Origin: a virus
DNA length: 59,303 nucleotides
IMG/VR virus record: IMGVR_UViG_3300008266_000155
Span: 1-59,303 of that record
Strand: one strand, 5' to 3'
The translations under genes were made by a program, and so were the position numbers. Shown here in pieces: positions 8,435 to 45,964 of this stretch (position 1 is its first letter; each line of letters opens with the position of its first letter). Under the pieces are notes generated by a model. That model saw only the letters and a list, made by a program, of their open reading frames with translations. It ran no database searches and was not told the DNA's origin.

Positions 8435-11400
8435 ATGGCCGGGCTATTCGATGATTTGATCCCGGCAGCCCCAGCCGAGTCGTCGAGCCCGCAAGCCTCC
8501 TCCGGTCTGTTCGATGATCTGATCCCCGGATCAGCGCCTTCATCCCTCCTGGGCACGGTCACGGTCCCCGTCGCCGAGCTGGACGCCGCGACGTCGCGCA
8601 CCGGCGGCAAGGGGCTCGACCGCCTGATCGGCGCGAGCACGGGCGCCGCCGATCCCGCGCGCGCCTACGAGCTGCGCAAGGCCGAGCAGGAAGCCAATGC
8701 CGCGGAAATCGCGCGGCTTTCGCAGGTCGACACCGATTTGCGGCAGGCCCCGGTCACCGAGTTCATTCAGGAAGACCCGCTGACCAAGATGCTGCGCGAG
8801 CAGCGCGAGGGCGAGGCGCGGCGCACCGGCCGTCCCGTCCCGGTCAGCCCGAACGAGATCGCGGCCGATCCGATCCAGCAAGCCGAGATGGTGCGCCAGC
8901 GCGAGATTGCGCGGGCAGGATCGAGCTTCGACGCCGCGCAGAAGGAACAGCGCAAGCTCATCACGACCCAGCCGCAGACGCAGGACGGCGTGCGCAACGC
9001 GGCCGAATCAGCGGCGGCCGGCATCGTGGGCATCCCGGCCGGCATGGCCGACGCCGGGCTCATCGTCGCCAAGGAGATCGCGAACACGCCGGAGGCGAAG
9101 GCGCGCATCGACAGCATGGTGCGCGACGTCCAGCAGTGGACGAACAGCATCGCCCGACCGGACGCCGCGCGCACCGACGAGTTCGGCAGCCAGCTCGCGC
9201 AGGGCGTCGGCTCCACCGGCGGCTTCTTCCTGGCCGGCGCGCTCGGTCAGGCGCTCGGCCTCGGCGCAACCGCGACCACCATGATCGCCGGCGCTCTGCC
9301 GCAGGCGTCGCAGCTCTACCGCGAGGCTGAGGCCAAGGGCGCGACCGAGACGCAGAAGTGGCTCGCCTTCGCCGGCGGCCTTGGGCTGGGCGCGACAGAG
9401 GCGCTGCCGATCGCGAACGCCATGGAGCGCTGGGCCGCGCAGGTGCCGGGCTTCCGCAATGTGATCCGGCAAGGCGCGGTCGGCGGCGCGGAGGAGTCGG
9501 CGCAGGAGTTCGGCCAGTCGGTCGGCGGCAACGCCATCGCGCGCTCGACCTTCGACCCGAACCGCAGCCTGACGGAAGGCACGCTGGAAGCCACGGCCGT
9601 CGGCGGCCTGTCGGGCGCGGGCTTTGGCGTGGCCGGCTCGGCCGCGACCAACCTGCTGCGGCAGGAGCAGGCCGGCGAGCAGGGCCTGCGCGAGCTGCCC
9701 CCGCCCGACACCACCGGCTTGCCTGACATCCCGGGCGCCCCGCCCGCGCAGCCTGTCCCGGGCCGGCCGGACCTGCCTGCCGGCGCCATGCCGGCCGACG
9801 ACTTCATCGGCGCCGACCCGGAAGCCCCGCCGCCTGGGCGAGAGAGCACGCGCGACCAGCTCGAGGGCCTGCTGAACGATCCGCGCTCGGCCGACGAGAT
9901 CCGGGCCGACATCGCCACGCAGAAGGACGCCGCCGAGCGCCGCGCCGATCGGTTCACGGCAGGGCTTGAGGCCGCCGGCATTGCCGCGCCCGTCGGCGCC
10001 GACGCAGCCGCGCCGCAAACCCCGCTGCAGCAGGCCGAGCAGATCGTGCGCGAGGCCGGCAAGGGCTCGACGTCGCTGATCCAGCGCAAGCTGGGGCTCG
10101 GCTACAACGACGCCGCCCGGCTGGTCGAGCAGCTTGAGGCGGCCGGCATCGTCAGCGCGCCCGATCAGGCGGGCAAGCGCACCATCCTGCCGTCCATCGA
10201 GGCGCAGACCGGCGAGCCGGATGCGCCCATCTCCATCCGCGAGCCGGAGGATGTGAACCGCGGCGCCGAGAACTTCGTCATCCAGCCGACGAAGCAGGAC
10301 ATCGATGCCGGCAAGACCGTGAAGCGCCGCGTCGAGTGGAACGGCTTCCAGATCGACGTGGAGACGGAGCAGGGCGAGGAGCGCGTCGGTGTCAGCCCCG
10401 ACGGCATCGCATGGTCGGCCGTGGCGCCCGCGCCCTACGGCGAGATCAAGAACACCAAGGGCGCCGACGGCGACCCGATCGACATCGTCCTGGGACCGAA
10501 CCCCAAGGGCGCGACGTTCGTCGTCGACCAGATCGACCCGAAGACCGGCAAGTTCGACGAGCACAAGGTCTACGCCGGCTTCGACAGCGAGCAGCAGGCG
10601 CAGCAGACCTACGAGGCGTCGTTCAGCGACGGCAGCGGCAAGACCCGCATCGGCGCGGTCAACCCGGTTTCCGTCGCGCAGCTCCGGCAGTGGGCCGCCA
10701 ACCGCAAGACCGACAAGCCGTTCAGCTATCAGCCGCCGATTCGCGCCGGCCTGACCGCGCAGCAGTTCAGCGACCTCAACCGCTTCATCATGGAGCCCGG
10801 GCAGTCGCTCAACCCGGCCAAGCTCGCGCCGAAGATTGACGCGGACCCGGAGGCGGTGCGCGCCGTCATGCAGAGGCTGGCGGCCGCCGGCACGATCGAC
10901 ATGACCCCGGCCGGCCGGTTCTCGCGCCCGAACAAGCTCGAGATGCTGAACATCCTGCAGTTCGTGGCATCGCGCGGCGGCGTGAACCCGCGCGCGGCCC
11001 GCGAGCTGCAGGATCTCGACCGCGTGTTCCTGCCGCGCTTCGGGCGCGTCGTCCGGCTCAACGGCCTGTCGTGGGATGAGCTGCAGGAGCAGGCCGCCGA
11101 GGCCGGCTATCAGTTCGCCACCGACGGCTCGGGCGGCATGGACGTGAACGAGCTGATCGAGCAGATGCGGCAGACCATCGCCGGCCAGCCGGTCTACGCC
11201 CGAGGCGACCAGCTCCGTGTGCTCGAGAAGCAGGACGAGCGCGAGCAGGCGCAGCGTGGCGACGACGACGGCGGCGAGGGCTATCGCCAGGCCGTGCGCG
11301 CCGCCGCCGCCGAGCTGGACATCAAGCTCAACCCCGACGCCATCGACGACGTCGCGAAGCAGATGGCCGGGCAGAACATCAGCGCGGCCGAGGCCATCGA

Positions 11401-12613
11401 GTATTGGGTGGAGGAGGAAAGCCGCCTCGCCATCGCCGACATCAACGAGCGTGCACAGGAGCGCAATGACGATGAGTTCTCCCTCCCGCCATATGACGAG
11501 CCAGGAGAAGCAGAAGGCGGCAGCCTTCCTGCGGAAAGCCTCGATGAAGGATCCGGGTCTGGACAAGGACAGCCGGCCGCGCCTGCGCCAACTGGCGAGC
11601 GCGCTGGAGAAGATCGCGGCCAAGAAGCGGCGGTAGAGCCCGGCGCTGAGGGCAAGCCGCAGACCGTCATTCCAGGCGCCGAGCGCATCGGCCAGAAGCA
11701 GCAGGCCGAGCGCGCCGCCGACAAGCCCCTGCGCCCGACCAAGCCGCAGCGCGAGGCCGGCGGCATGTTCGACGAGGCGCAGACTGCGCCGCAGCTATTC
11801 GACGACGTGCCGGCAGCCGTCGCCAAGATGGAGGCCGAGGTCGACGCGATCGAGCGCGGCATCGAGCCGCCCAAGAGCGCCGGTCTAGCCACGATCAAGG
11901 CCAAGCGCGAGGCGCTGGCAAATGCGACCGCGCCCGAACACGTCCAAGGCGTCGATGACCGTGAGCTAGGCCAGATCGTCGCCGAGTTCAATTCGGCGCA
12001 GCAGTCGATGGCGCAAGATGGCGAGGCCATTACGCACCTGTTCGACCCGCCAAAGAAAAACGAAATCGTGCGGCTGGATACCAAGGCCAAAGCCAACGGA
12101 ATGATGACGCGCGAGCAGGCCCGCGCCCGCATCGCCGAGTGGAAGGCGCACGCGCAGGCTCAAGGCGACAACGACGCCATCCGAAGCGAGAACAGTCAGA
12201 AAGTTGTTCTTTCGCTGTTCGACTACACCGGCGAATGGTCGAAGCCATGGGAGGAGGCCGGCTATCAAGTCTATCGCTTCGACATCCAGAACGATCCTGA
12301 GGTTGGCGACGTCAACAACTTCTCAACGGAGTTCTTCAGCGATTGGTTCGGCGACTTCGATGGCATGGACATCTACGCTATTCTCGGCGCGTGCCCCTGC
12401 ACCGACTTCGCGTCATCCGGCGCCAGGCACTTCGCAGCCAAGGATGAGGATGGCCGCACCGTCGCATCCGTGAAGCTCGTGCATCAGACGCTCGCCACGA
12501 TCGAGTATTTCAAACCGTCGATCTGGGCGATCGAGAACCCCGCGGCCTCCCGCCGTGGCGCTTGTCGTTCGACCCGAACCATCTTGGCGATAGCTACACC
12601 AAGAAGACGCTGA
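8435..12613 (+). CDS. Giant polyvalent virion protein, fragment 1 (pyrophosphatase-like and C5-methyltransferase N-terminal domains)
   Basis: 1392 residues. It opens with a GLFDDLIP motif that occurs twice within 30 residues. Residues about 185-410 contain several Gly/Ala hydrophobic segments that could insert in a membrane. Residues about 597-755 match the pyrophosphatase-like domain (PGEIKNTKGADGD-like signature, then DEHKVYAGF) described in polyvalent proteins. From about 1255 a C5-cytosine methyltransferase begins (LSLFDYTGEW, catalytic ACPCTDFASSG at about 1318-1328, IENP at the end). The frame is lost just after IENP; the last 22 or so residues are out of frame. The rest of the domain continues in the -1 frame. 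Such proteins are thought to enter the host with the DNA and counter restriction. Confidence 0.8.
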   Translation: MAGLFDDLIPAAPAESSSPQASSGLFDDLIPGSAPSSLLGTVTVPVAELDAATSRTGGKGLDRLIGASTGAADPARAYELRKAEQEANAAEIARLSQVDTDLRQAPVTEFIQEDPLTKMLREQREGEARRTGRPVPVSPNEIAADPIQQAEMVRQREIARAGSSFDAAQKEQRKLITTQPQTQDGVRNAAESAAAGIVGIPAGMADAGLIVAKEIANTPEAKARIDSMVRDVQQWTNSIARPDAARTDEFGSQLAQGVGSTGGFFLAGALGQALGLGATATTMIAGALPQASQLYREAEAKGATETQKWLAFAGGLGLGATEALPIANAMERWAAQVPGFRNVIRQGAVGGAEESAQEFGQSVGGNAIARSTFDPNRSLTEGTLEATAVGGLSGAGFGVAGSAATNLLRQEQAGEQGLRELPPPDTTGLPDIPGAPPAQPVPGRPDLPAGAMPADDFIGADPEAPPPGRESTRDQLEGLLNDPRSADEIRADIATQKDAAERRADRFTAGLEAAGIAAPVGADAAAPQTPLQQAEQIVREAGKGSTSLIQRKLGLGYNDAARLVEQLEAAGIVSAPDQAGKRTILPSIEAQTGEPDAPISIREPEDVNRGAENFVIQPTKQDIDAGKTVKRRVEWNGFQIDVETEQGEERVGVSPDGIAWSAVAPAPYGEIKNTKGADGDPIDIVLGPNPKGATFVVDQIDPKTGKFDEHKVYAGFDSEQQAQQTYEASFSDGSGKTRIGAVNPVSVAQLRQWAANRKTDKPFSYQPPIRAGLTAQQFSDLNRFIMEPGQSLNPAKLAPKIDADPEAVRAVMQRLAAAGTIDMTPAGRFSRPNKLEMLNILQFVASRGGVNPRAARELQDLDRVFLPRFGRVVRLNGLSWDELQEQAAEAGYQFATDGSGGMDVNELIEQMRQTIAGQPVYARGDQLRVLEKQDEREQAQRGDDDGGEGYRQAVRAAAAELDIKLNPDAIDDVAKQMAGQNISAAEAIEYWVEEESRLAIADINERAQERNDDEFSLPPYDEPGEAEGGSLPAESLDEGSGSGQGQPAAPAPTGERAGEDRGQEAAVEPGAEGKPQTVIPGAERIGQKQQAERAADKPLRPTKPQREAGGMFDEAQTAPQLFDDVPAAVAKMEAEVDAIERGIEPPKSAGLATIKAKREALANATAPEHVQGVDDRELGQIVAEFNSAQQSMAQDGEAITHLFDPPKKNEIVRLDTKAKANGMMTREQARARIAEWKAHAQAQGDNDAIRSENSQKVVLSLFDYTGEWSKPWEEAGYQVYRFDIQNDPEVGDVNNFSTEFFSDWFGDFDGMDIYAILGACPCTDFASSGARHFAAKDEDGRTVASVKLVHQTLATIEYFKPSIWAIENPAASRRGACRSTRTILAIATPRRR
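11472..11636 (+). CDS. Possible nested gene in the +1 frame of the polyvalent gene
   Basis: 54 residues, read in the +1 frame inside polyvalent fragment 1. An AGGAG lies 10 bases before the ATG; a further ATG at 11493 would give 47 residues. The product is Lys/Leu/Ala-rich and helical (TSQEKQKAAAFLRKASM), unlike the Arg/Ser/Pro-rich nonsense of other off-frames here. The main frame over the same bases is an acidic, low-complexity linker. That pattern suggests this frame is, or was, a real gene. Function unknown. Confidence 0.4.
   Translation: MSSPSRHMTSQEKQKAAAFLRKASMKDPGLDKDSRPRLRQLASALEKIAAKKRR
12538..12541 (+). other. Apparent frameshift 1 in the giant gene (C4 run)
   Basis: The C5-methyltransferase reads IENP up to the CCC codon at 12539-12541, then continues as RGLPPWRLSFDP in the -1 frame. 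Adding one C, or a one-base backward slip of the CCC-reading tRNA, restores the domain. A missing base in a C run and a programmed shift give the same sequence. Confidence 0.7.
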
Positions 12614-15600
12614 TCTGGGGGCGCTTCAACGCCGATCTGCCCGTCGCGCCCGTTGAGGCGACCGAGGGCTCTAAGATGTGGTCGCAGTATGGTGGCAAGA
12701 GCCAGCGCACCAAGAACGCCCGCAGCGCGACGCCGGAAGGCTTCAGCTACGGCTTCTTTATGGCGAACAATGCCCACGATCATCAGGCGATGGCGCTCGC
12801 CAATAAGTTCGACCGCCTCGACGGAAAGCTGATTGAGCAGGCTATCAAGGTCGGCGTGAAGCCTGACGCCATCACGAACGCCGTCGAAGACTTCTACTAC
12901 ATGGACCTCGATGACGAGGCCGCCAACAAGGCTATCCGCGATCTGATGCCCGGCAAGCCGACGCCGGCCCAGACCCGCCGCGAGGCCTTGGAGACCAGCG
13001 CCCCGCCCGTCGAGGATGATCGCGAGCGCCAGCGCCGCGAGAACGTCGCCAAACTCGATGCCATCGCCCAGGAGGGCGAAAATAAGGCAGCGCCGTCCAA
13101 GGGCGCCAGCAACACCGTCTTCACCGCCGACAAGGCCGCCGCCGCGCGCGCCCGCCTGAAGGCCAAGCTGTCTGGCTCGCAGCTCAACAGCGGCATCGAC
13201 CCCGAGACGGTTCAGGACGGCATCACCCTGGCCGGCTTCCACATCGAGGCCGGCGCCCGGAAGTGGGCCGACTACACCAAGGCGATGATCGCGGATCTCG
13301 GCGAGGTGGTGCGCCCGTATCTGCGCGGCTGGTACGAGGCCATCCGCTATTATCCCGGCTTCGATGCGCAGGGCATGAGCACGGCCGCCGAGATCGACGC
13401 GGCCGGATCAAATACCGCCACGGCCGAAACCCCAACGATTACAGCACGCGCGCCCGCCGAAGCGCCGGCGGAATCAAAACCCGATCAAAAAGCCGAAAAG
13501 GCCGAAAACCCGGTCGCGCCAGTTTCCGGCGTGGCGACCAGCGGCAAGCCCGAAGACAAGTTCCGCAGCATCCAGATCATCCGGAGCGGCGAGCTGCCGA
13601 GCTGGGCGTATGATGGGCTGAACCCCGAAGCGTTCTCCGATCTCGCTGACAAGATGAGCGTCGAGGAGCTGCGCGAGGCATCCACGACGCTGACCAAGAT
13701 GATGCTCGGCGGCCTGGGCAAGATCGCTGACCCCAGCCGCCCGATCAGCGACAGCATGCCGTTGATCGCGGTCATGCAGTCCGAGCGCGACGCCTACCGC
13801 GATGAGGCCGACCGCCGCGATCCGCCGAACCTCGCGGCCAGCAACAAGCCGGCGTTCGCCGATCCCTTGGACGAGATGCGGGCGCGTGGCGCCAAGGCGT
13901 TTGCCCGAGGCGAGCCGCGCATCCCGCCGTCGGAGCTGTTCAACAAGAAGGGCGCGAAAGAAGCAGAGGCGTGGATGGCCGGCTATGACCGCGCCATGGA
14001 CGGCGATGCGACCGGCGGCGTCTCGCAGCCTCAGTTGACGGCACCGCCCAAGGCGAAGACCGGCGAGTCGTCCATGGTCGAGGACATCGCCGACGCCTTC
14101 CGGCTGGCGTTCAGCGAGGGCAAGGGATTCCAGACGATCCTGCAGGCCCGGAAGCACGCCGAGAAGGTGACGCGGGCGCCGATCCAGCCCGGCACCGAGA
14201 TGGCCAAGATCGCCGACGAGGCGATCGAGCTGGGCGTGGTCATGCGCGCCCGCGACATCGTGGACGAGGGCCGCCGCGACGGCAGTAGCGAGAAGGCAAT
14301 CTACGACCAGCTCGTGAAGCTCTACGAGATGCAGCCGAACCTGTCGGTGCGCACGTCGACCAGCATGCGCGATCAGGCCTATTCGACCCCGGTACCGCTG
14401 GCCTACATCGCGTCGCGCCTGGCAGGCATCACGCCGCAGACGACCGTCTACGAGCCGACGGCCGGCAATGGCGCGCTGCTGATCGAGGCGGCGCCCGCCA
14501 AGAGCGTCACCAACGAGCTGAACCCGGATCGCCGCGCCGCGCTCGAGCTGCAGGGCTTCAAGCCCATGTCGCTCGATGCGAGCGCCGGCAGCACTGGCAA
14601 GCAGGCGCGCGAGGCCAACGGCGGCAAGACCTTCGACGTCATCATCGAGAACCCGCCATTCGGCGTGGTGAGGGACGACGACGGCAAGAGCCAGACCTAC
14701 AAGATCGACGACCGCTACAGCACGAACGAAATCGATCACGCCATCGTCATGCGCTCGCTCACGAGCATGAAGGGCGACGGCCGGGCCGTGCTCATCATCG
14801 GCGGCGTCAACAAGCTGATGAAGACGCGCGAGGCGCGCAGCGACGCCTACAACGGCAAGGCCAAGCGCGAGTTCTTCCTCACGCTCTATGGCCAATACAA
14901 CGTGATCGACCACTTCACGGTCGACGGCGATCTCTATGCCAAGCAGGGCGCCGGCTACCCGGTCGACGTCATCGTCATCAACGGGCGCGGCCGCTCCGCG
15001 CGCAAGGTGCCGGCCGCAGACGTGCCGCGAATTATCACGTCATGGGCCGATCTCAGGAACCAGCTCGATGTCGCAAAAACAACTGGACCAGCTATCGGAG
15101 AAGCTGATCGACCTGCTGTCGGATCTCAGCCAGGCCGAGCTGGCGGAATCGCTGGCGCAGATGGTGGACGAGTGGGAGGAAGCCGGCCTGATACCGCCGG
15201 AGTCGGCGGCGCTGCTGCGCGACCAGCCGAGCCTGCAGTCGGCGGATCTCCTGATAGAGGCGGCAAGCGCCCCGCTGACGGACCGGCTCAACTTCAACCG
15301 CAATCAGGAGCTGCCGCGCGCCCTGAAAGCGCAGACGCCGCAGGCGTTCAGCGACGCCCTCAGGTAGCCGAGCAGTCGCAGGCCTCGCTGTTCGAGGACG
15401 ATACCGCCGCCGAGACGCAGCCCGCGCTCGACGCGCCCGACAAGCCCAAGCCGCGCCAGGCGCCGGCCGCCGCCACGCCGGCAGCCGTCGACATGTCGAA
15501 GCCCCAGGTGCCGTACCGCCCGCGCAGCGATGCGAAGGGCATGGACACCCTTGTGCCGGTCAACATGCAGACCAGCGCGCAGGAGGCGCTGGACGATCTC

Positions 15601-18600
15601 GAGAAGCAGGTCGGCGACATCGACGAGTATGTGACCCGCGAGCTGGGCTACAGCTCCGCCGCGGACATGAAGCGCTATCTGGCCGCCGAGCAGGTCGATG
15701 GTGTCGCGCTCGGCATCTACAATTTCACAAAGAACGCCGGCCTCATCATCGGCGACCAGACCGGCATCGGCAAAGGCCGGCAGGTGGCGTCGATCCTGCG
15801 CTGGGCGATCAAGAACGGGAAGACCCCGATCTTCGTCACCGAGAAGCCCAACCTCTACGCCGACATGTACCGCGACCTGACGGACATCGGCATCGAGGCC
15901 ATGCTCGGCCGCCCGATCAAGATGTTCATGACCAACTCCGGCGAGTCGGTCCCGCTGGACGAGGACGGCAAGAACACGCTGAAAAGCCCGCCGGCCGGGC
16001 CCCACCAGATCAGCATGCGGCGCATGGCGCAGAGCGGCGATCTCGAGGGCCACGACATCATCTTCACGACCTATGCGCAGATGCAGACGGTCAAGGGCGA
16101 GGAGACGGAGCGGCAGAAGTTCCTGCGCGCCATGGCCGCCAAGAACGGCGTCATCGTGGTCGACGAGGCGCACAACGCCGGCGGCGGCGGCCCGGCCGCG
16201 CGCGAGAAGGTGAACGACAAGGGCGTCGTCATCATCAACCGCGCGACCTTCGTGCGCGAGATCCTTGGGCTGGCCGATGCGGCGCTCTACTCGTCGGCGA
16301 CCTATGCCAAGCGCCCCGACGTGATGGATCTCTATTTCAAGACCGACATGTCGCAGGCCGTCGATGACATCTCCACCCTGGGCGATCTCATCACCAAGGG
16401 CGGCATCCCGATGCAGCAGATCGTGGCCGCGATGCTGTCGCGCGCCGGCCAGTATGTGCGCCGCGAACGCAGCTTCGAGGGCATCGTCTACGATACCCCT
16501 GCTGTCGAGGTCGACACGGACAAGTACGAGGAGTTCAGCCGCAACATCGCGCTTATCCAGTCGTTCTCCGAGAACTTCGTGAAGGCGGCAGCCGGCAACA
16601 TCGACCAGCGGCTCAAAGAAGACGGCAAGCAGATCACCCCCGACGGCAGCACCGGCGGCGCGGGCGCCAGCTCGACCAACTTCACCGCCGTCATGCACAA
16701 CGTCATCAACCAGCTCCTGTTGTCGATGAAGGCGCAGGCCGCGGCCGATCGCGCCATTGCAGCGCTCAAGCGCGGCAAGAAGCCGGTCATCACCCTGGCG
16801 AACACGAACGAGGCGTTCATCGACGAGTACGCCGAGCAGGTCGGTGCCAATGTCGGCGACGCCATCGGCATCCGCTTCAACGATGTGCTGCAGCGCTATC
16901 TTGACCGCAGCCGCACCGTGACCATCAAGAAGCCGTTCGCGAAGAAGGGCGAGAGCGAGCGCATCTATCTGTCCGACGACGATCTCGGCCCGGCCGGTGT
17001 CGCCGCCTACAAGGAGGCGAAAGCCGCCATCGCGGCCGCCGACTATGACGGGCTCGCCGTCTCGCCGATCGACTGGATCCGCGCGCAGATCACCCGCGCC
17101 GGCTATACCGTGTCCGAGATCACCGGCCGCGGCCTGACGCTCGATTATCGGGCCGATGGGCAGTCCGTCCTGAAAATGCGCCCGGGCTCCGAGAAGTCGA
17201 TCACCGGCCGCCGCTCCGCGATCTCCGGGTTCAACTCCGGCAAGATCGATGTGCTCATCATCAACCAGTCCGGATCGACCGGCCTGTCGCTGCACGCTTC
17301 CGAGAAGGTGCTGAACAAGAACAAGCGCGTGATGATCCTGGCGCAGGCCGAAGGCAACATCGACACGCACATGCAGATGCTCGGCCGCGTCAACCGGACC
17401 GGGCAGGTGGTGCTGCCGGACTATCAGCAGCTCGTGGCCGGCATCCCCGCCGAGAAGCGGCCGGCGTCGATCCTCGCGAAGAAGATGGCGAGCCTGAACG
17501 CGAACACGACAGGCGCGCGCGATTCGGCCGTGACCGCCAAGGACACGCCCGATTTCATGAACGCCTATGGCGACCGCGTGGCCGCGTCGATCATGATCGA
17601 GAACCCCGACATCAACCGGCGGCTGGGCGAGCCTATCAGCTTGGACGAGGAGGCCGACACCGACGGCGCCATGCGCAAGGTCACCGGCCGCATTCCGCTG
17701 CTGCCGCTGAAAGAGCAGGAGGAGCTGTACGACCTGCTGCAGTCGGAATACGAGGCGCTGATCCGCCAGCTCGAAGCCAGCGGCCAGAACGCGCTCGAGG
17801 CCAAGACGCTTGAGCTGGACGCCCGCACCGTCGAGGCGGCCACCGTCAAGCCAGGCAAGGGCACCGCTTCGCCGTTCGCCGATGCCGTCTATTTCGAGAA
17901 GGTCGACGCGAAGCGGCTCGGCAAGCCGATGACGCCCGCGCAGATCTTCGACACCATCCTGACCAAGTTCGAGATGGATGACCGCACCGAGATCGACAAC
18001 AAGCCGTCCGATGAGGCGCGGCTCGCGCTCCTCGCGGCGCTCGGCCGCGGCATCATGAAGGACAAGGCCGGGCAGGCGCGCAGCGCGTTCGCGACCTTCA
18101 AGAGGCAGACTGTCGAGGCGGTCAAGAAGGACGACGCCAAGCGTCAGATGCAGGTCAAGCTCGACGACGTGCAGAAGCGCTGGGAGGCGATCATCGACAT
18201 CGTCTCGCCCGGTCAGGGCGTCGTGCTCAAGACCAACGAGGGCAATTTCTACGGCATCGTCACCGACGTCTCGTTCAGCGGCCGGGCCAAGAACCCGCTC
18301 GCCATGTCGGCTTGGCGCGTGGATGTCGCGCTCGCCGATCCCGCGCGCTCGATGAACGTCCCATTCTCGCAACTCTACACGGCGCGCACGGCGCCGGAAA
18401 AGGGCGGCGATTTCCAGATCGAGATCGCCCCGGTCAACAGCATCGGCTCGATGCCGCTGCTGCGCGCCTTCGAGGACATGCAGGCCGAGCGGCGCGAGGA
18501 CCGCGTCATGGTCACCGGCAACATTCTCGCCGGCTTCGACTTCGTCAACGGCGCCGGCCAGATCGTCAACTTCACCGACAACGAGGGCCGGCTGCGGCAA

Positions 18601-19422
18601 GGCATCTTCATGCGCCGCGGCTTCGACGCCGAGAAGTTCCTGGCGAAGAAGGCCGTGGTGCTCAAGACGGCGCGGCAGGTACTCACCTATCTCGAGCGCG
18701 TGAAGAAGACGATCGTTCAGTCGTCCGACAAGCTCGTCGCGATCAGGATGAGCGACCAGGGCGACGTCATCATCACCACCGATGCAACCCGGCAGGGCGG
18801 CGGCCGCTATTTCCTCAGCAAGAAGGTGACGGACGCGGCCGGCAAGGACTTCGTCAAGGTCAGCAGCCAGATGCGCATGGGCCTCTACCCGAACCGCGCG
18901 CTCGACACGATCGACCAGATCATCGCGCTGGGCGCCAGCTTCGAGGCGTCCGACAATGTCGACGTCGCGCGCGAGATCGCCGGCAAGGATGACCGCGCGT
19001 TCTCGATCAAGGTCACCACCAACAAGACCAAGACGCCAAGCAGCTCGAATGTCGAGGCCGACCCCATCGATCGCTTCACCGCCGACATCGACCGGCTGGA
19101 AGGATCGCTGCGGCGCCGGCTGGACCGGCTCGGCCTGGCCGACGTCGGCCTGCGGCTCGTGAAGGAGCTGCGGTTCAACTTCGAGGGCCAGTCGTTCCCG
19201 GCGTCGGGCATGTACCTGCGCGGGCTCATCACCGTCGCGCTGGACGCCGATAACCAGCAGATCCTCGATCACGAGGCGCTGCATGCCTTGAAGCGGCTGG
19301 GCGCGTTCACCCCTGTCCAATCGGTCGAAGGCCGACTGGATGGCGCGATGGAACATCCCCCAGGCATATGCGGCGTTCCCCGAGTGGGCGCAGGTCGAGG
19401 AGGGCGTCGCGCATGCCTATGA
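12562..19422 (+). CDS. Giant polyvalent virion protein, fragment 2 (C5-MTase end, N6-MTase, strawberry-notch helicase, HExxH segment)
   Basis: 2286 residues from a TTG; true coding probably enters from fragment 1 by a one-base shift at 12538-12541. Residues 1-75 finish the C5-methyltransferase. Residues about 560-815 are an N6-adenine methyltransferase (VYEPTAGNGALL, then NPPFG near 697). Residues about 975-1700 are a strawberry-notch/SNF2-like helicase: Walker A GDQTGIGKG near 1066, VVDEAH near 1200, then GSTGLSLHAS and QMLGRVNRTGQ. Near 2236 is HEALH, a zinc-peptidase-like HExxH. The final 30 or so residues are out of frame. It resembles the P1 DarB type of protein that protects injected DNA. 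Confidence 0.8.
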   Translation: MSFDPNHLGDSYTKKTLIWGRFNADLPVAPVEATEGSKMWSQYGGKSQRTKNARSATPEGFSYGFFMANNAHDHQAMALANKFDRLDGKLIEQAIKVGVKPDAITNAVEDFYYMDLDDEAANKAIRDLMPGKPTPAQTRREALETSAPPVEDDRERQRRENVAKLDAIAQEGENKAAPSKGASNTVFTADKAAAARARLKAKLSGSQLNSGIDPETVQDGITLAGFHIEAGARKWADYTKAMIADLGEVVRPYLRGWYEAIRYYPGFDAQGMSTAAEIDAAGSNTATAETPTITARAPAEAPAESKPDQKAEKAENPVAPVSGVATSGKPEDKFRSIQIIRSGELPSWAYDGLNPEAFSDLADKMSVEELREASTTLTKMMLGGLGKIADPSRPISDSMPLIAVMQSERDAYRDEADRRDPPNLAASNKPAFADPLDEMRARGAKAFARGEPRIPPSELFNKKGAKEAEAWMAGYDRAMDGDATGGVSQPQLTAPPKAKTGESSMVEDIADAFRLAFSEGKGFQTILQARKHAEKVTRAPIQPGTEMAKIADEAIELGVVMRARDIVDEGRRDGSSEKAIYDQLVKLYEMQPNLSVRTSTSMRDQAYSTPVPLAYIASRLAGITPQTTVYEPTAGNGALLIEAAPAKSVTNELNPDRRAALELQGFKPMSLDASAGSTGKQAREANGGKTFDVIIENPPFGVVRDDDGKSQTYKIDDRYSTNEIDHAIVMRSLTSMKGDGRAVLIIGGVNKLMKTREARSDAYNGKAKREFFLTLYGQYNVIDHFTVDGDLYAKQGAGYPVDVIVINGRGRSARKVPAADVPRIITSWADLRNQLDVAKTTGPAIGEADRPAVGSQPGRAGGIAGADGGRVGGSRPDTAGVGGAAARPAEPAVGGSPDRGGKRPADGPAQLQPQSGAAARPESADAAGVQRRPQVAEQSQASLFEDDTAAETQPALDAPDKPKPRQAPAAATPAAVDMSKPQVPYRPRSDAKGMDTLVPVNMQTSAQEALDDLEKQVGDIDEYVTRELGYSSAADMKRYLAAEQVDGVALGIYNFTKNAGLIIGDQTGIGKGRQVASILRWAIKNGKTPIFVTEKPNLYADMYRDLTDIGIEAMLGRPIKMFMTNSGESVPLDEDGKNTLKSPPAGPHQISMRRMAQSGDLEGHDIIFTTYAQMQTVKGEETERQKFLRAMAAKNGVIVVDEAHNAGGGGPAAREKVNDKGVVIINRATFVREILGLADAALYSSATYAKRPDVMDLYFKTDMSQAVDDISTLGDLITKGGIPMQQIVAAMLSRAGQYVRRERSFEGIVYDTPAVEVDTDKYEEFSRNIALIQSFSENFVKAAAGNIDQRLKEDGKQITPDGSTGGAGASSTNFTAVMHNVINQLLLSMKAQAAADRAIAALKRGKKPVITLANTNEAFIDEYAEQVGANVGDAIGIRFNDVLQRYLDRSRTVTIKKPFAKKGESERIYLSDDDLGPAGVAAYKEAKAAIAAADYDGLAVSPIDWIRAQITRAGYTVSEITGRGLTLDYRADGQSVLKMRPGSEKSITGRRSAISGFNSGKIDVLIINQSGSTGLSLHASEKVLNKNKRVMILAQAEGNIDTHMQMLGRVNRTGQVVLPDYQQLVAGIPAEKRPASILAKKMASLNANTTGARDSAVTAKDTPDFMNAYGDRVAASIMIENPDINRRLGEPISLDEEADTDGAMRKVTGRIPLLPLKEQEELYDLLQSEYEALIRQLEASGQNALEAKTLELDARTVEAATVKPGKGTASPFADAVYFEKVDAKRLGKPMTPAQIFDTILTKFEMDDRTEIDNKPSDEARLALLAALGRGIMKDKAGQARSAFATFKRQTVEAVKKDDAKRQMQVKLDDVQKRWEAIIDIVSPGQGVVLKTNEGNFYGIVTDVSFSGRAKNPLAMSAWRVDVALADPARSMNVPFSQLYTARTAPEKGGDFQIEIAPVNSIGSMPLLRAFEDMQAERREDRVMVTGNILAGFDFVNGAGQIVNFTDNEGRLRQGIFMRRGFDAEKFLAKKAVVLKTARQVLTYLERVKKTIVQSSDKLVAIRMSDQGDVIITTDATRQGGGRYFLSKKVTDAAGKDFVKVSSQMRMGLYPNRALDTIDQIIALGASFEASDNVDVAREIAGKDDRAFSIKVTTNKTKTPSSSNVEADPIDRFTADIDRLEGSLRRRLDRLGLADVGLRLVKELRFNFEGQSFPASGMYLRGLITVALDADNQQILDHEALHALKRLGAFTPVQSVEGRLDGAMEHPPGICGVPRVGAGRGGRRACL
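15068..15367 (+). CDS. Possible nested gene in the +1 frame of the polyvalent gene, between methylase and helicase
   Basis: 99 residues, ATG with AGGA 9 bases upstream. The product is a well-formed helical protein (MSQKQLDQLSEKLIDLLSDL, then a Glu/Leu-rich middle and an Asn/Arg-rich end). Over the same bases the main frame gives a Gly/Ala/Arg/Pro linker that looks like off-frame translation. Either a small gene is overprinted on the linker, or methylase, small gene and helicase were once separate and later fused. No family recognised. Confidence 0.5.
   Translation: MSQKQLDQLSEKLIDLLSDLSQAELAESLAQMVDEWEEAGLIPPESAALLRDQPSLQSADLLIEAASAPLTDRLNFNRNQELPRALKAQTPQAFSDALR
19306..19339 (+). other. Apparent frameshift 2 in the giant gene
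   Basis: Sense moves from the frame ending ALKRLGAFTPVQ to the +1 frame reading SKADWMARWNIPQAY somewhere in this interval. The exact base cannot be placed. An extra base, or two missing bases, would explain it. Confidence 0.55.
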
Positions 19423-31132: not shown

Positions 31133-31151
31133 CGGGTGGCCGCGTCCTATG

Positions 31152-31168
31152 TGTCACCGAAAGAGACA
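31152..31168 (+). promoter_or_regulatory. Operator copy B, 17-bp inverted repeat
   Basis: TGTCACCGAAAGAGACA: half sites TGTCAC and GAGACA with a 5-base spacer. On the minus strand, TTGACT and a 17-base spacer precede a weak CCTTGT -10 that ends in the operator, so a bound repressor would block transcription of the nuclease operon. Confidence 0.65.
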
Positions 31169-31210
31169 AGGCACGAGCCGGGCCGGCAAGTCAAGGCTGT
31201 GGACGGCTCA

Positions 31211-39115: not shown

Positions 39116-39138
39116 GGGGTGTCTCCTGGGGTTCGCGT

Positions 39139-39155
39139 TGTCTCCGGTGGAGACA
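39139..39155 (-). promoter_or_regulatory. Operator copy A, perfect 17-bp inverted repeat
   Basis: TGTCTCCGGTGGAGACA on the plus strand, a perfect 7-bp palindrome around GGT. It abuts the -10 of the leftward promoter, where a bound repressor would block RNA polymerase. Confidence 0.7.
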
Positions 39156-39180
39156 ATAAGCCCCAAAATGGACCCGTCAA
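39153..39180 (-). promoter_or_regulatory. Leftward early promoter
   Basis: Read on the minus strand: TTGACG, a 16-base spacer, then TATTGT. The last three bases of the -10 are the first three of operator A. It drives the small-gene block from 39115 leftward. This is the clearest promoter in the window. Confidence 0.65.
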
Positions 39181-39236
39181 CTGTTTTTTATTTCGCAGCA
39201 ATATCAACGACTTGCGGCCCGCCTTCGCGCGAGGCT

Positions 39237-39253
39237 CGTCACTTTTGGTGACT
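39237..39253 (+). promoter_or_regulatory. Operator copy D, 17-bp imperfect inverted repeat
   Basis: CGTCACTTTTGGTGACT: a GTCAC/GTGAC palindrome with the same 5-base spacing as the other copies. It lies 34 bases before the tRNA, so it may control the tRNA and the structured RNA region. Confidence 0.5.
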
Positions 39254-39286
39254 TGACGCGATGTCTCCGAGCGTGTCGATTGCAGT

Positions 39287-39362
39287 CGTGGAGTGGCGCA
39301 GCGGTCAGCGCATCGGCCTCATAAGCCGAGGGTCGCGGGTTCAAATCCCGCCTCCGCAACCA
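39287..39362 (+). tRNA. tRNA-Met (CAT), initiator-like acceptor
   Basis: 76 bases including an encoded CCA. Every stem folds: acceptor with one G-T pair, D stem GCGC/GCGC, anticodon stem TCGGC/GCCGA with loop CTCATAA, T stem GCGGG/CCCGC with loop TTCAAAT. Position 1 is C and faces A72, the unpaired end that marks bacterial initiator tRNA. However, the anticodon stem has GGC/GCC and not three G-C pairs of the GGG/CCC type, and position 11 is a pyrimidine as in elongators. An isoleucine (lysidine) tRNA with CAT is less likely given C1:A72. Confidence 0.92.
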
Positions 39363-40163
39363 ATTCGCCCGCAAGGGCGTCCGGTAAGGTGGGCGGGGTT
39401 TCGGGTTCCTGCAGCGCCTTTTGTCTCGCGGAGAGAACCCGAGGGTGGCGACCGACGCCTGACGCCGGCCAAAGCGCCGGTCAGAGGCCGGCGCGTCCCG
39501 AAAGCCGCGACCGGCCCGAGAATTGGAGATCGCGATGCCGCCGCTGGGCGGGGTGTCGTGGGGCTCGACGACGAAGCGGCGAGGTGAATGGCGCTGCAGA
39601 AATCGTGACGGGGCGGTGCGGGGCGAATGCCCGCTGCGTCCTGGCCCAACCTATCGCCCGCCTAAGCAAGCGGGAAGCGGTGCAGCGGGGTTCGAGTCCC
39701 CAAGCGGATCGGGCAGCAATCCGGCTCGCGCAGGTGCAAGACCGTGATGCCGGTGCAAGCCCGGCTGCTGTTTCGCCCGTAAGGGCGCACGACATCCTCG
39801 CCGGGGGATGACACGGCCCTGCCAGGTTGCGCGCGCAGCTTGATCGCAGGTGACGGAATCCGGGCCGATGGGCGAGCGGACTTAAAGCGCCCCGAAGCTC
39901 GAGGCCATTGCGCGCCTCGAGCCAAGTTTCGCCCGAACGGGCAACGAAGTCTGGCCCCGGCGGGAGCATCCCCGTCGTCGGATGCTCGAGGAGAAGCCCG
40001 TGGCGCCCGCCCGTGCTTCAACGGGCCGGATAGAACCTGCCGCGCACGCCCCCGCGCGGTGGATGGCGAGGAAGCAGGGCGTCGGAACCACCACATGGTA
40101 TCTGACACCCGGCGCTCTGCTTCCAAGCCGCCAACAGCCCCTCGCGACAGGAGCGACCGACCC
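39363..40163 (+). ncRNA. Candidate large structured RNA downstream of the tRNA
   Basis: About 800 bases with no convincing gene: every frame is Arg/Ala/Pro-rich nonsense. Many perfect stems are seen: 39366-39379 (GCAA loop), 39401-39408/39435-39442, 39464-39470/39486-39492, 39539-39545/39575-39581 with inner 39555-39559/39568-39572, 39714-39718/39766-39770, 39774-39787 (GTAA loop), 39897-39905/39914-39922, 39964-39971/39980-39987, 40009-40014/40021-40026, 40040-40045/40054-40059 and 40070-40077/40117-40124. GNRA loops and nested helices suggest a folded RNA. Size and tRNA linkage recall the GOLLD class known from phages, but identity with any class is unproven. Confidence 0.5.
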
Positions 40164-40502
40164 GTGACCACCACACGCAACCGCGACAACCCCGACGGCG
40201 GCGACGCCGAGCGCGACGCAGCTGATCCGCTGACGCCTGATGAGCGCGCAATCGTCGAGGGTTTCCGCCGCACATGCGACGAGAACGATTGGTGCGGCTG
40301 CCGCGCCCACCTCGCTCTTGGCGGCGAGCCCACGAAAGCGCAGCGCGAAATCATCCGCAGCCTCGTCGCGCGCGGGCTGCTGCGCTTGGAGCGCGGCGGC
40401 CAGGACGAGGACGGCCAATTCATCGGCGGCACGTTCTACGGCGTCACGTTCGAGGGCAAATGGGCCCTGAAATGGACGCCCCAGCGCGAGCTGCCGCTGT
40501 GA
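40164..40502 (+). CDS. Unknown protein, possible winged-helix
   Basis: 112 residues from GTG 40164, with AGGAG 10 bases upstream. Residues 25-60 (LTPDERAIVEGFRRTC and CGCRAHLALGG) and 65-100 (AQREIIRSLVARGLLRLERG, then a beta turn) resemble a small winged-helix fold. Longer upstream extensions are nonsense-like and overlap the structured region. First gene after the RNA region. Confidence 0.55.
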   Translation: MTTTRNRDNPDGGDAERDAADPLTPDERAIVEGFRRTCDENDWCGCRAHLALGGEPTKAQREIIRSLVARGLLRLERGGQDEDGQFIGGTFYGVTFEGKWALKWTPQRELPL

Positions 40503-45739: not shown

Positions 45740-45805
45740 TCGCCGGCTTCGGCCGGTTGCCCTCCTTGGGCGTTTCCTCCCTAAACTTTCGGACCTATTC
45801 GAGCA

Positions 45806-45837
45806 CCCGCCGGCCCCCGTGGCTGGCGGGCTTTTCG
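45806..45837 (+). terminator. Rho-independent terminator after the terminase block
   Basis: A 10-bp stem (CCCGCCGGCC with GGCTGGCGGG, one G-T pair), loop CCCGT, then CTTTTCG. It lies in the gap 45740-45964, which holds no other gene I can support. Confidence 0.8.
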
Positions 45838-45964
45838 TTGTGCCGCCCGGTCTTCCGCGCGTGCAAGATCCTGATCGGCGCTCGAGCTGCGATCTTGCGA
45901 AAATGCCGGTTCCACGGTAAGCCCGATGCTGCAGCCTCCCATCAGCGCGCCGAGGGCCACACCC

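Follow-up and report, generated by a model that had tools for sequence, protein, structure and literature searches.

RNAs of the GOLLD family form multimeric cages made of RNA alone. Both GOLLD and ROOL are phage and prophage RNAs that often lie near tRNA islands and whose function is unknown; GOLLD combines a conserved 3' region with a variable 5' region, and many of its members exceed 800 nt (PMC12286853). In phage HK022, the nascent leader RNA put suppresses pausing and termination on its own (PMC9378689). In addition, a tRNA-Met or tRNA-fMet gene is present in many phiLM21-like prophages (PMC12429752).

Here, we analyzed a virus contig of 59,303 nucleotides (the window, meaning the whole stretch), in which the 800 bases at 39363-40163 had been predicted to form a large RNA beside a tRNA, either GOLLD, ROOL, or a new class. 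Like GOLLD, the stretch would be a phage RNA next to a tRNA, about 800 nt in length and rich in hairpins (PMC12286853). Unlike GOLLD, it has no Rfam match, and its conserved part spans only about 90 to 160 nt in the middle of a leader with genes directly after it. The likeness to ROOL, a phage and prophage RNA often found near tRNA islands (PMC12286853), is likewise offset by the lack of an Rfam match. Like put, it would be a structured RNA that stands at the start of phage operons, 5' of the first gene (PMC9378689), but the setting is alphaproteobacterial, the leader is much longer, and the comparison is one of position, not sequence. Finally, phiLM21-like and other Rhizobiales phages have a single tRNA-Met(CAT) followed by 240 to 310 nt of unannotated sequence ahead of the terminase region; a model of the conserved core found no match in these post-tRNA stretches.

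Gene layout, operators, and tRNA-Met

The window, a 59.3-kb contig, encodes a P22-like portal (48491) and a large terminase (43878), as identified with PHROGs and Pfam. Gene calling placed a divergence point at 39116-40163, between leftward genes and a rightward operon. The operon begins with a 112-aa protein of no known family (40164-40502, plus strand) and leads to the small terminase (43277), the large terminase, and the portal. A gene caller based on codon usage, with the window as its training set, left 39116-40163 empty, and each open reading frame of the 800-base stretch had a codon-usage score at or below zero, in keeping with the original prediction that no frame is protein-like. The predicted tRNA neighbor is a tRNA-Met(CAT) gene with an encoded CCA (39287-39362, plus strand), found by ARAGORN and by the Rfam tRNA model (66.9 bits). 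In the ARAGORN drawing, its C1 x A72 mismatch is initiator-like, while the anticodon stem is so only in part. Neither ARAGORN at default settings nor the Rfam tRNA model detected further tRNA genes in 39363-40163, and no convincing intrinsic terminator was found between the tRNA and the gene at 40164 (one weak site versus 1.0 expected).

An operator had also been said to precede the tRNA, and two elements 5' of the gene agree with this. One is a perfect inverted repeat, TTGTCTCC-GGT-GGAGACAA (39138-39156, zero mismatches in a pattern scan), which overlies the -10 of a leftward promoter-like site, TTGACG-16-TATTGT (39153-39180, minus strand; 9/12 in a consensus scan). The other is a half-site, GATGTCTCC, at 39260-39268. 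Five operator sites with three or fewer mismatches occur in the window, against 0.17 expected; besides its perfect copy at 39138-39156, the operator-like palindrome TTGTCTCCnnnGGAGACAA has a three-mismatch copy at 31151-31169, in the other divergent intergenic region of the window. These copies likely constitute a repressor regulon. The segment at 39253-39281 (plus strand) may be the rightward promoter, as read from its TTGACG, a spacer that holds the half-site GATGTCTCC, and a weak -10; the consensus promoter scan did not pick it up.

Hairpins and folding energy

The 800 bases contain 14 nonoverlapping perfect hairpins of 5 to 9 pairs, where at least eleven such stems had been predicted. Dinucleotide shuffles gave 7.6 ± 2.1 hairpins (2 of 200 reached 14), and other 801-base windows of the contig gave 7.0 ± 2.3 (0.7% reached 14). 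The hairpins start at 39366, 39474, 39538, 39555, 39618, 39657, 39705, 39749, 39774, 39793, 39897, 39964, 40009, and 40040. Two of them, at 39366-39379 and 39774-39787, have the same CGCCC/GGGCG stem with GCAA and GTAA loops, just as had been claimed, and GNRA-closed stems are thus observed twice against an expectation of 0.13; a third, related hairpin lies at 39926-39942. The repeat GGTGCAAG, another element of the prediction, is present at 39733 and 39752.

Folding energy was less distinctive. For the whole stretch, z was -3.2 (20 shuffles) or -1.8 (12 shuffles) on the plus strand and -0.9 or -0.6 on the minus strand. Tiles of 400 nt starting at 39201, 39601, and 40001 gave z scores of -1.1, -1.2, and -2.9, while coding tiles reached -5 and the genome-wide mean was -0.66 (sd, 1.2). 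The stability of the 800 bases is therefore not unusual for this GC-rich genome, and for that reason the density of hairpins is suggestive rather than decisive.

The variable noncoding part (39363-39787, plus strand), for which no homolog was found, includes a T-arm-like hairpin, GGGGTTCGAGTCCCC (39687-39701), and a hairpin that is T-loop-like as well as T-arm-like, GCCGGTGCAAGCCCGGC (39749-39765). The noncoding 3' part (39946-40163, plus strand) has long hairpins at 39964-39987 and 40056-40085/40109-40138 that are not conserved. Searches of phages, plasmids, and related contigs detected no relatives of 39363-39770 or 39950-40163, and these outer parts may be structured, in decay, or under no constraint.

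Homologs of the conserved core

The search for relatives of the stretch covered some 1,100 distinct genomes in the samples (roughly 2,000 genome searches, with many repeats), 50,697 phage records, and 72,556 plasmids, and exact-pattern scans, to which diverged copies are invisible, were run on 2.9 million viral contigs. Four patterns for the core or its neighborhood had zero matches in the viral contigs. Podophage contigs related through a neighboring gene or the portal (40 to 58% identity in the better matches) all lacked the stretch; the blast matches of the region were the tRNA or chance, and the noncoding gaps in these relatives are probably, at least in part, genes that the caller missed.

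A sensitive blastn search of the plasmids returned a weak match (E = 0.8) in a noncoding gap of plasmid pRlX5 of Rhizobium leguminosarum TP16. On its own this match was not significant, because others at the same level were chance: one in a Variovorax plasmid (L112) lay opposite a coding gene, and one in a Geminicoccaceae plasmid (L114) consisted of palindromes within the gap next to a partition gene. Between the aligned blocks of the window and pRlX5, however, a predicted helix showed a compensatory switch from G-C to A-U, and a hairpin was swapped. A covariance model built from these two sequences was then run on the sampled genomes. Samples of a phylum and of a class yielded only chance-level matches, whereas a single-order sample, found by way of a probably alphaproteobacterial genome with GapR, yielded a third copy in genome G1067 (59.9 bits; E = 3e-10 for one genome). 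The order is presumably Rhizobiales, given this route and the hosts of the other copies. Scored against the window, the G1067 and R. leguminosarum copies reached 62.5 and 48.3 bits, respectively, while the best of 200 shuffles was 31.1; by blastn, the G1067 contig (L233) is 70% identical to window positions 39793-39945 over 160 nt. These three copies were all that the searches recovered. Model matches of 27 to 32 bits in G217, G443, G629, G853, and G1001 were at chance level over hundreds of genomes, and a genome-wide pattern for the core gave 18 matches in unrelated phyla that lacked helix P2 (described below); both sets were dismissed as chance.

The surroundings of the G1067 copy mirror those of the window, even though the model contained no tRNA information. 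The copy lies on a 12.3-kb contig (C6) that is most likely a prophage, with genes for GapR, an AAA ATPase, a DNA polymerase III beta clamp, SSB, and a tyrosine integrase. The order is a divergent gene, a tRNA-Met(CAT) (reverse complement, 923-998), the core (reverse complement, 1156), and a rightward operon; the noncoding stretch is about 370 nt and the core is 158 nt past the tRNA. No closely similar protein is common to the two elements. GapR of the window and of this prophage are 31% identical over 72 aa, a likeness at the family level only, and the two phages are therefore not close kin. The R. leguminosarum core occupies a 474-nt gap 5' of small genes, 50 nt past a promoter-like site and without a tRNA, so that the tRNA link holds for two of the three copies.

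Structure of the conserved core

The core (39788-39875, plus strand) is supported by its homologs in pRlX5 and G1067 and by compensatory changes in two helices. Hairpin P0 (39794-39799/39804-39809), of the form ATCCyC-GCCG-GGGGRT, is capped by GCCG. It is followed by helix P1, CGrC/GyCG (39814-39817/39864-39867), whose variable pair is G-C in the window, A-U in R. leguminosarum, and G-U in G1067. Helix P2, cCTRC/GYAGg (39818-39822/39846-39850), has a variable pair that is G-C in the window and R. leguminosarum and A-U in G1067. P1 and P2 make up a two-step helix, and on it sits P3 (39824-39830/39835-39841), a hairpin with a different sequence in each copy. The G-U pair of P1 in G1067 and the U-G pairs of P0 indicate that the helices tolerate G-U in the modeled RNA strand. 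Across the three copies, the single strands ACACG and CGGAAnCCGGG hardly vary, and the CCGG of the P0 loop could pair with the CCGG of CGGAAnCCGGG. A less conserved extension (39876-39945, plus strand), identified by blastn against L233 and by alignment, contains two less well conserved hairpins, one at 39897-39905/39914-39922 and a GCCC(N4)GGGCAAC hairpin at 39931-39942.

In the alignment, 97.8% of helix cells are paired, compared with 35 to 51% when the partner strand is slid. Two pairs are changed on both sides (G-C/A-U) among the three sequences, a level reached by 120 of 500 shuffles in a control that is weak with three sequences; since only three copies were found, support from covariation is thin. 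The structure is thus supported by homology and consistent changes, not yet by statistics. Because the same fold, with compensatory changes, heads operons in a prophage and on a plasmid, the central part of the stretch is a real structured RNA motif that had not been catalogued before. The prediction of a structured RNA beside the tRNA is strengthened by the homologs, the compensatory changes, and the position after a tRNA-Met in an unrelated prophage. Its size estimate of about 800 nt fared less well, given a conserved unit of only about 90 to 160 nt and a remainder with no detectable relative, and the proposed alignment of relatives for compensatory changes bore out structure for 39788-39875 alone.

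Comparison with catalogued RNA families

We searched the stretch with Rfam 15 (cmscan), at gathering thresholds and then permissively at E values up to 5. The sole accepted match was the tRNA; GOLLD and ROOL were absent even at the permissive setting, and the suggested membership in either family is not upheld. Permissive searches that included the homologs returned only tRNA and a subthreshold twister-sister match. The latter covers 39729-39800 at 22.4 bits (E = 0.048), below the curated threshold of 34. The match shares GCCGGTGCAAGCCCGGC and the upstream GCAAG with that ribozyme, but the window lacks the twister-sister 3' strand GCGCTCAT, which carries the cleavage site, and has GCGCACGACAT instead, while twister-sister-like copies in viral contigs L154, L163, L182, L206, and L213 carry GCGCTCAT or GTGCTCAT. 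The match also uses bases of the conserved hairpin P0. Owing to the score, the missing strand, and the clash with P0, a twister-sister identity is disfavored.

Two hairpin families emerged alongside these searches. Twister-sister-like arrangements of the form CCGCAAGGCCGAC...GCCGGTGCAAGCCCGGC...GCTCATGGG occur in viral contigs L154, L163, L176, L182, L188, L206, L213, and L218, and many of them stand just 5' of a gene. A T-loop-like hairpin, GCCGGTG(A/G)AAGCCCGGC, often in the form CCGCAGCCGGTGGAAGCCCGGCAAC, recurs across many unrelated phage contigs, including L164, L165, L173, L185, L186, L187, L193, L196, L199, and L222. About 44 of its matches fall in noncoding gaps, as defined by our own gene caller, some of which are 600 to 1,100 nt long, and two lie within about 60 nt 5' of a tRNA (L164 and L187). 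It is possibly a common phage RNA hairpin module.

Proposed function of the stretch

Our tentative reading, to which we assign a probability of about 0.42, is that 39287-40163 is the 5' untranslated region of the rightward operon and contains a structured, cis-acting leader. The repressor-controlled divergent promoter region would drive transcription of 39287-40163, and the initiator-like tRNA-Met at the start of the transcript would be cut out by tRNA processing enzymes. What follows would be a structured leader with its conserved core at 39788-39875, reaching to about 39945. Acting in cis, the core may, on the model of HK022 put, help RNA polymerase to traverse the long untranslated leader, or it may direct processing. 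At each of the three loci, the core is found 5' of the first operon gene and on the operon strand, and the operons behind it differ, with morphogenesis genes in the window, replication genes in G1067, and unknown plasmid genes in R. leguminosarum. Because it heads operons of unrelated content, the core would be expected to act on its own transcript. The tRNA is missing from the R. leguminosarum locus and is therefore not essential. An untranslated leader of 800 bases is a transcription liability for which put RNA offers a precedent, and we therefore place a role in processivity or processing first. Yet, the rightward promoter is weak, a put-like element would need far less than 800 nt, covariation support from three copies is thin, and the tRNA is linked to the core in only two of three cases. 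Promoters at the three loci are predicted ones, weak or not found at two of them.

Several features of the locus would also suit the main alternative, a free-standing, trans-acting large phage RNA in the style of GOLLD and ROOL, made with the tRNA and then processed out, in which the conserved core is one domain and the remainder evolves fast. These include the length of about 800 nt, the tRNA neighbor, the high density of hairpins, and the GNRA and T-loop-like hairpins, and GOLLD and ROOL themselves are often near tRNA islands (PMC12286853). We consider this possible but doubtful, given that no large-RNA family in Rfam matches, that the noncoding stretches at the homologous loci measure no more than about 370 nt in G1067 and 474 nt in R. 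leguminosarum, and that no terminator intervenes before the genes that directly follow in all three genomes. It is unlikely, too, that the stretch represents the first example of a new large phage RNA class, with the conserved core and fast-evolving outer domains, that would be made together with the initiator-like tRNA-Met and act in trans during alphaproteobacterial infection. The hairpins might instead work as DNA, in a replication origin or a packaging or partition site. The divergent intergenic position and the plasmid location of one copy speak for such an element, and G-C to A-T compensations fit DNA hairpins equally well. But G-U pairs are tolerated in the modeled RNA strand (P0, and P1 in G1067), no repeat array exists apart from the operators, and every copy of the core shares its strand with the operon 3' of it, all of which makes a DNA element improbable.

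Decay of a tRNA gene cluster or a ribozyme is disfavored and seems highly improbable. It would explain the T-arm-like hairpins at 39687-39701 and 39749-39765, the twister-sister score over 39729-39800, and the fact that the GCCGGTGCAAGCCCGGC 17-mer forms a hairpin in the twister-sister-like sequences from other viral contigs. It leaves the conserved core unexplained, however, and ARAGORN at default settings and the tRNA model find a single tRNA, while the ribozyme match is below 34 bits, without GCGCTCAT, and overlapping P0. Least probable of all for the stretch as a whole is an unconstrained GC-rich spacer with chance hairpins. Such a spacer fits a folding energy that is ordinary for the genome and the lack of relatives for most of the 800 bases, but not the hairpin density (2/200), the conserved position after tRNA-Met, or a core homology far above shuffles. 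This explanation is already refuted for the core, though it could apply to portions of 39363-39770 and 39950-40163.

Despite having no match in Rfam 15, the motif is common to a podophage contig, a prophage, and a megaplasmid, which suggests that alphaproteobacterial mobile elements share it as a portable RNA part. If the cis-acting leader that we favor controls whole phage operons through transcription or processing, it would offer a testable RNA handle on phage gene expression; no comparable handle in this host group was found in the literature searched. More generally, a tRNA-Met gene in phages of this kind can signal the 5' end of a larger structured stretch left blank in annotations.

Other observations

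Among Rhizobiales phages and plasmids, a single tRNA-Met with 240 to 310 nt of GC-rich unannotated sequence after it was seen at L236:2999-3388, L239:1347-1663, and L241:2545-2899. The corresponding stretch of MesoLjLa5 is much more stable than its shuffles whichever strand is folded (z = -5.1 and -5.7). Upstream of the tRNA-Met stretch in phiLM21 and RHph_TM3_3_3 is a gene for a NusG-like antiterminator. No dedicated antitermination gene, NusG-like or other, was recognized among the subset of window proteins scanned, which speaks against the proposed leader role. The leaders of the G1067 prophage (L233, about 11270-11309, minus strand) and Rhizobium phage RHph_I1_23 (L235:3001-3040) have in common a 40-nt element, CCCAGGAGnnnGCCATGTRRACnGCAGCTCGGGGCGAGCA, which comprises a ribosome-binding site and an ATG with a stop codon right after it (TGA in one leader and TAG in the second). 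The window lacks this AGGAG-ATG-stop arrangement.

Elsewhere in the window, assignment of the 40499 protein as a cobalamin adenosyltransferase was rejected, the Pfam match being weak and below the family cutoff. A giant protein of 2,286 aa (12562-19422) has PHROG matches to DarB-like antirestriction and endolysin-like proteins. Finally, an Rfam match to the suhB/mmgR sRNA (45752-45846; 41.7 bits against a threshold of 41) sits between small genes 3' of the large terminase, which suggests an alphaproteobacterial host or a captured sRNA.
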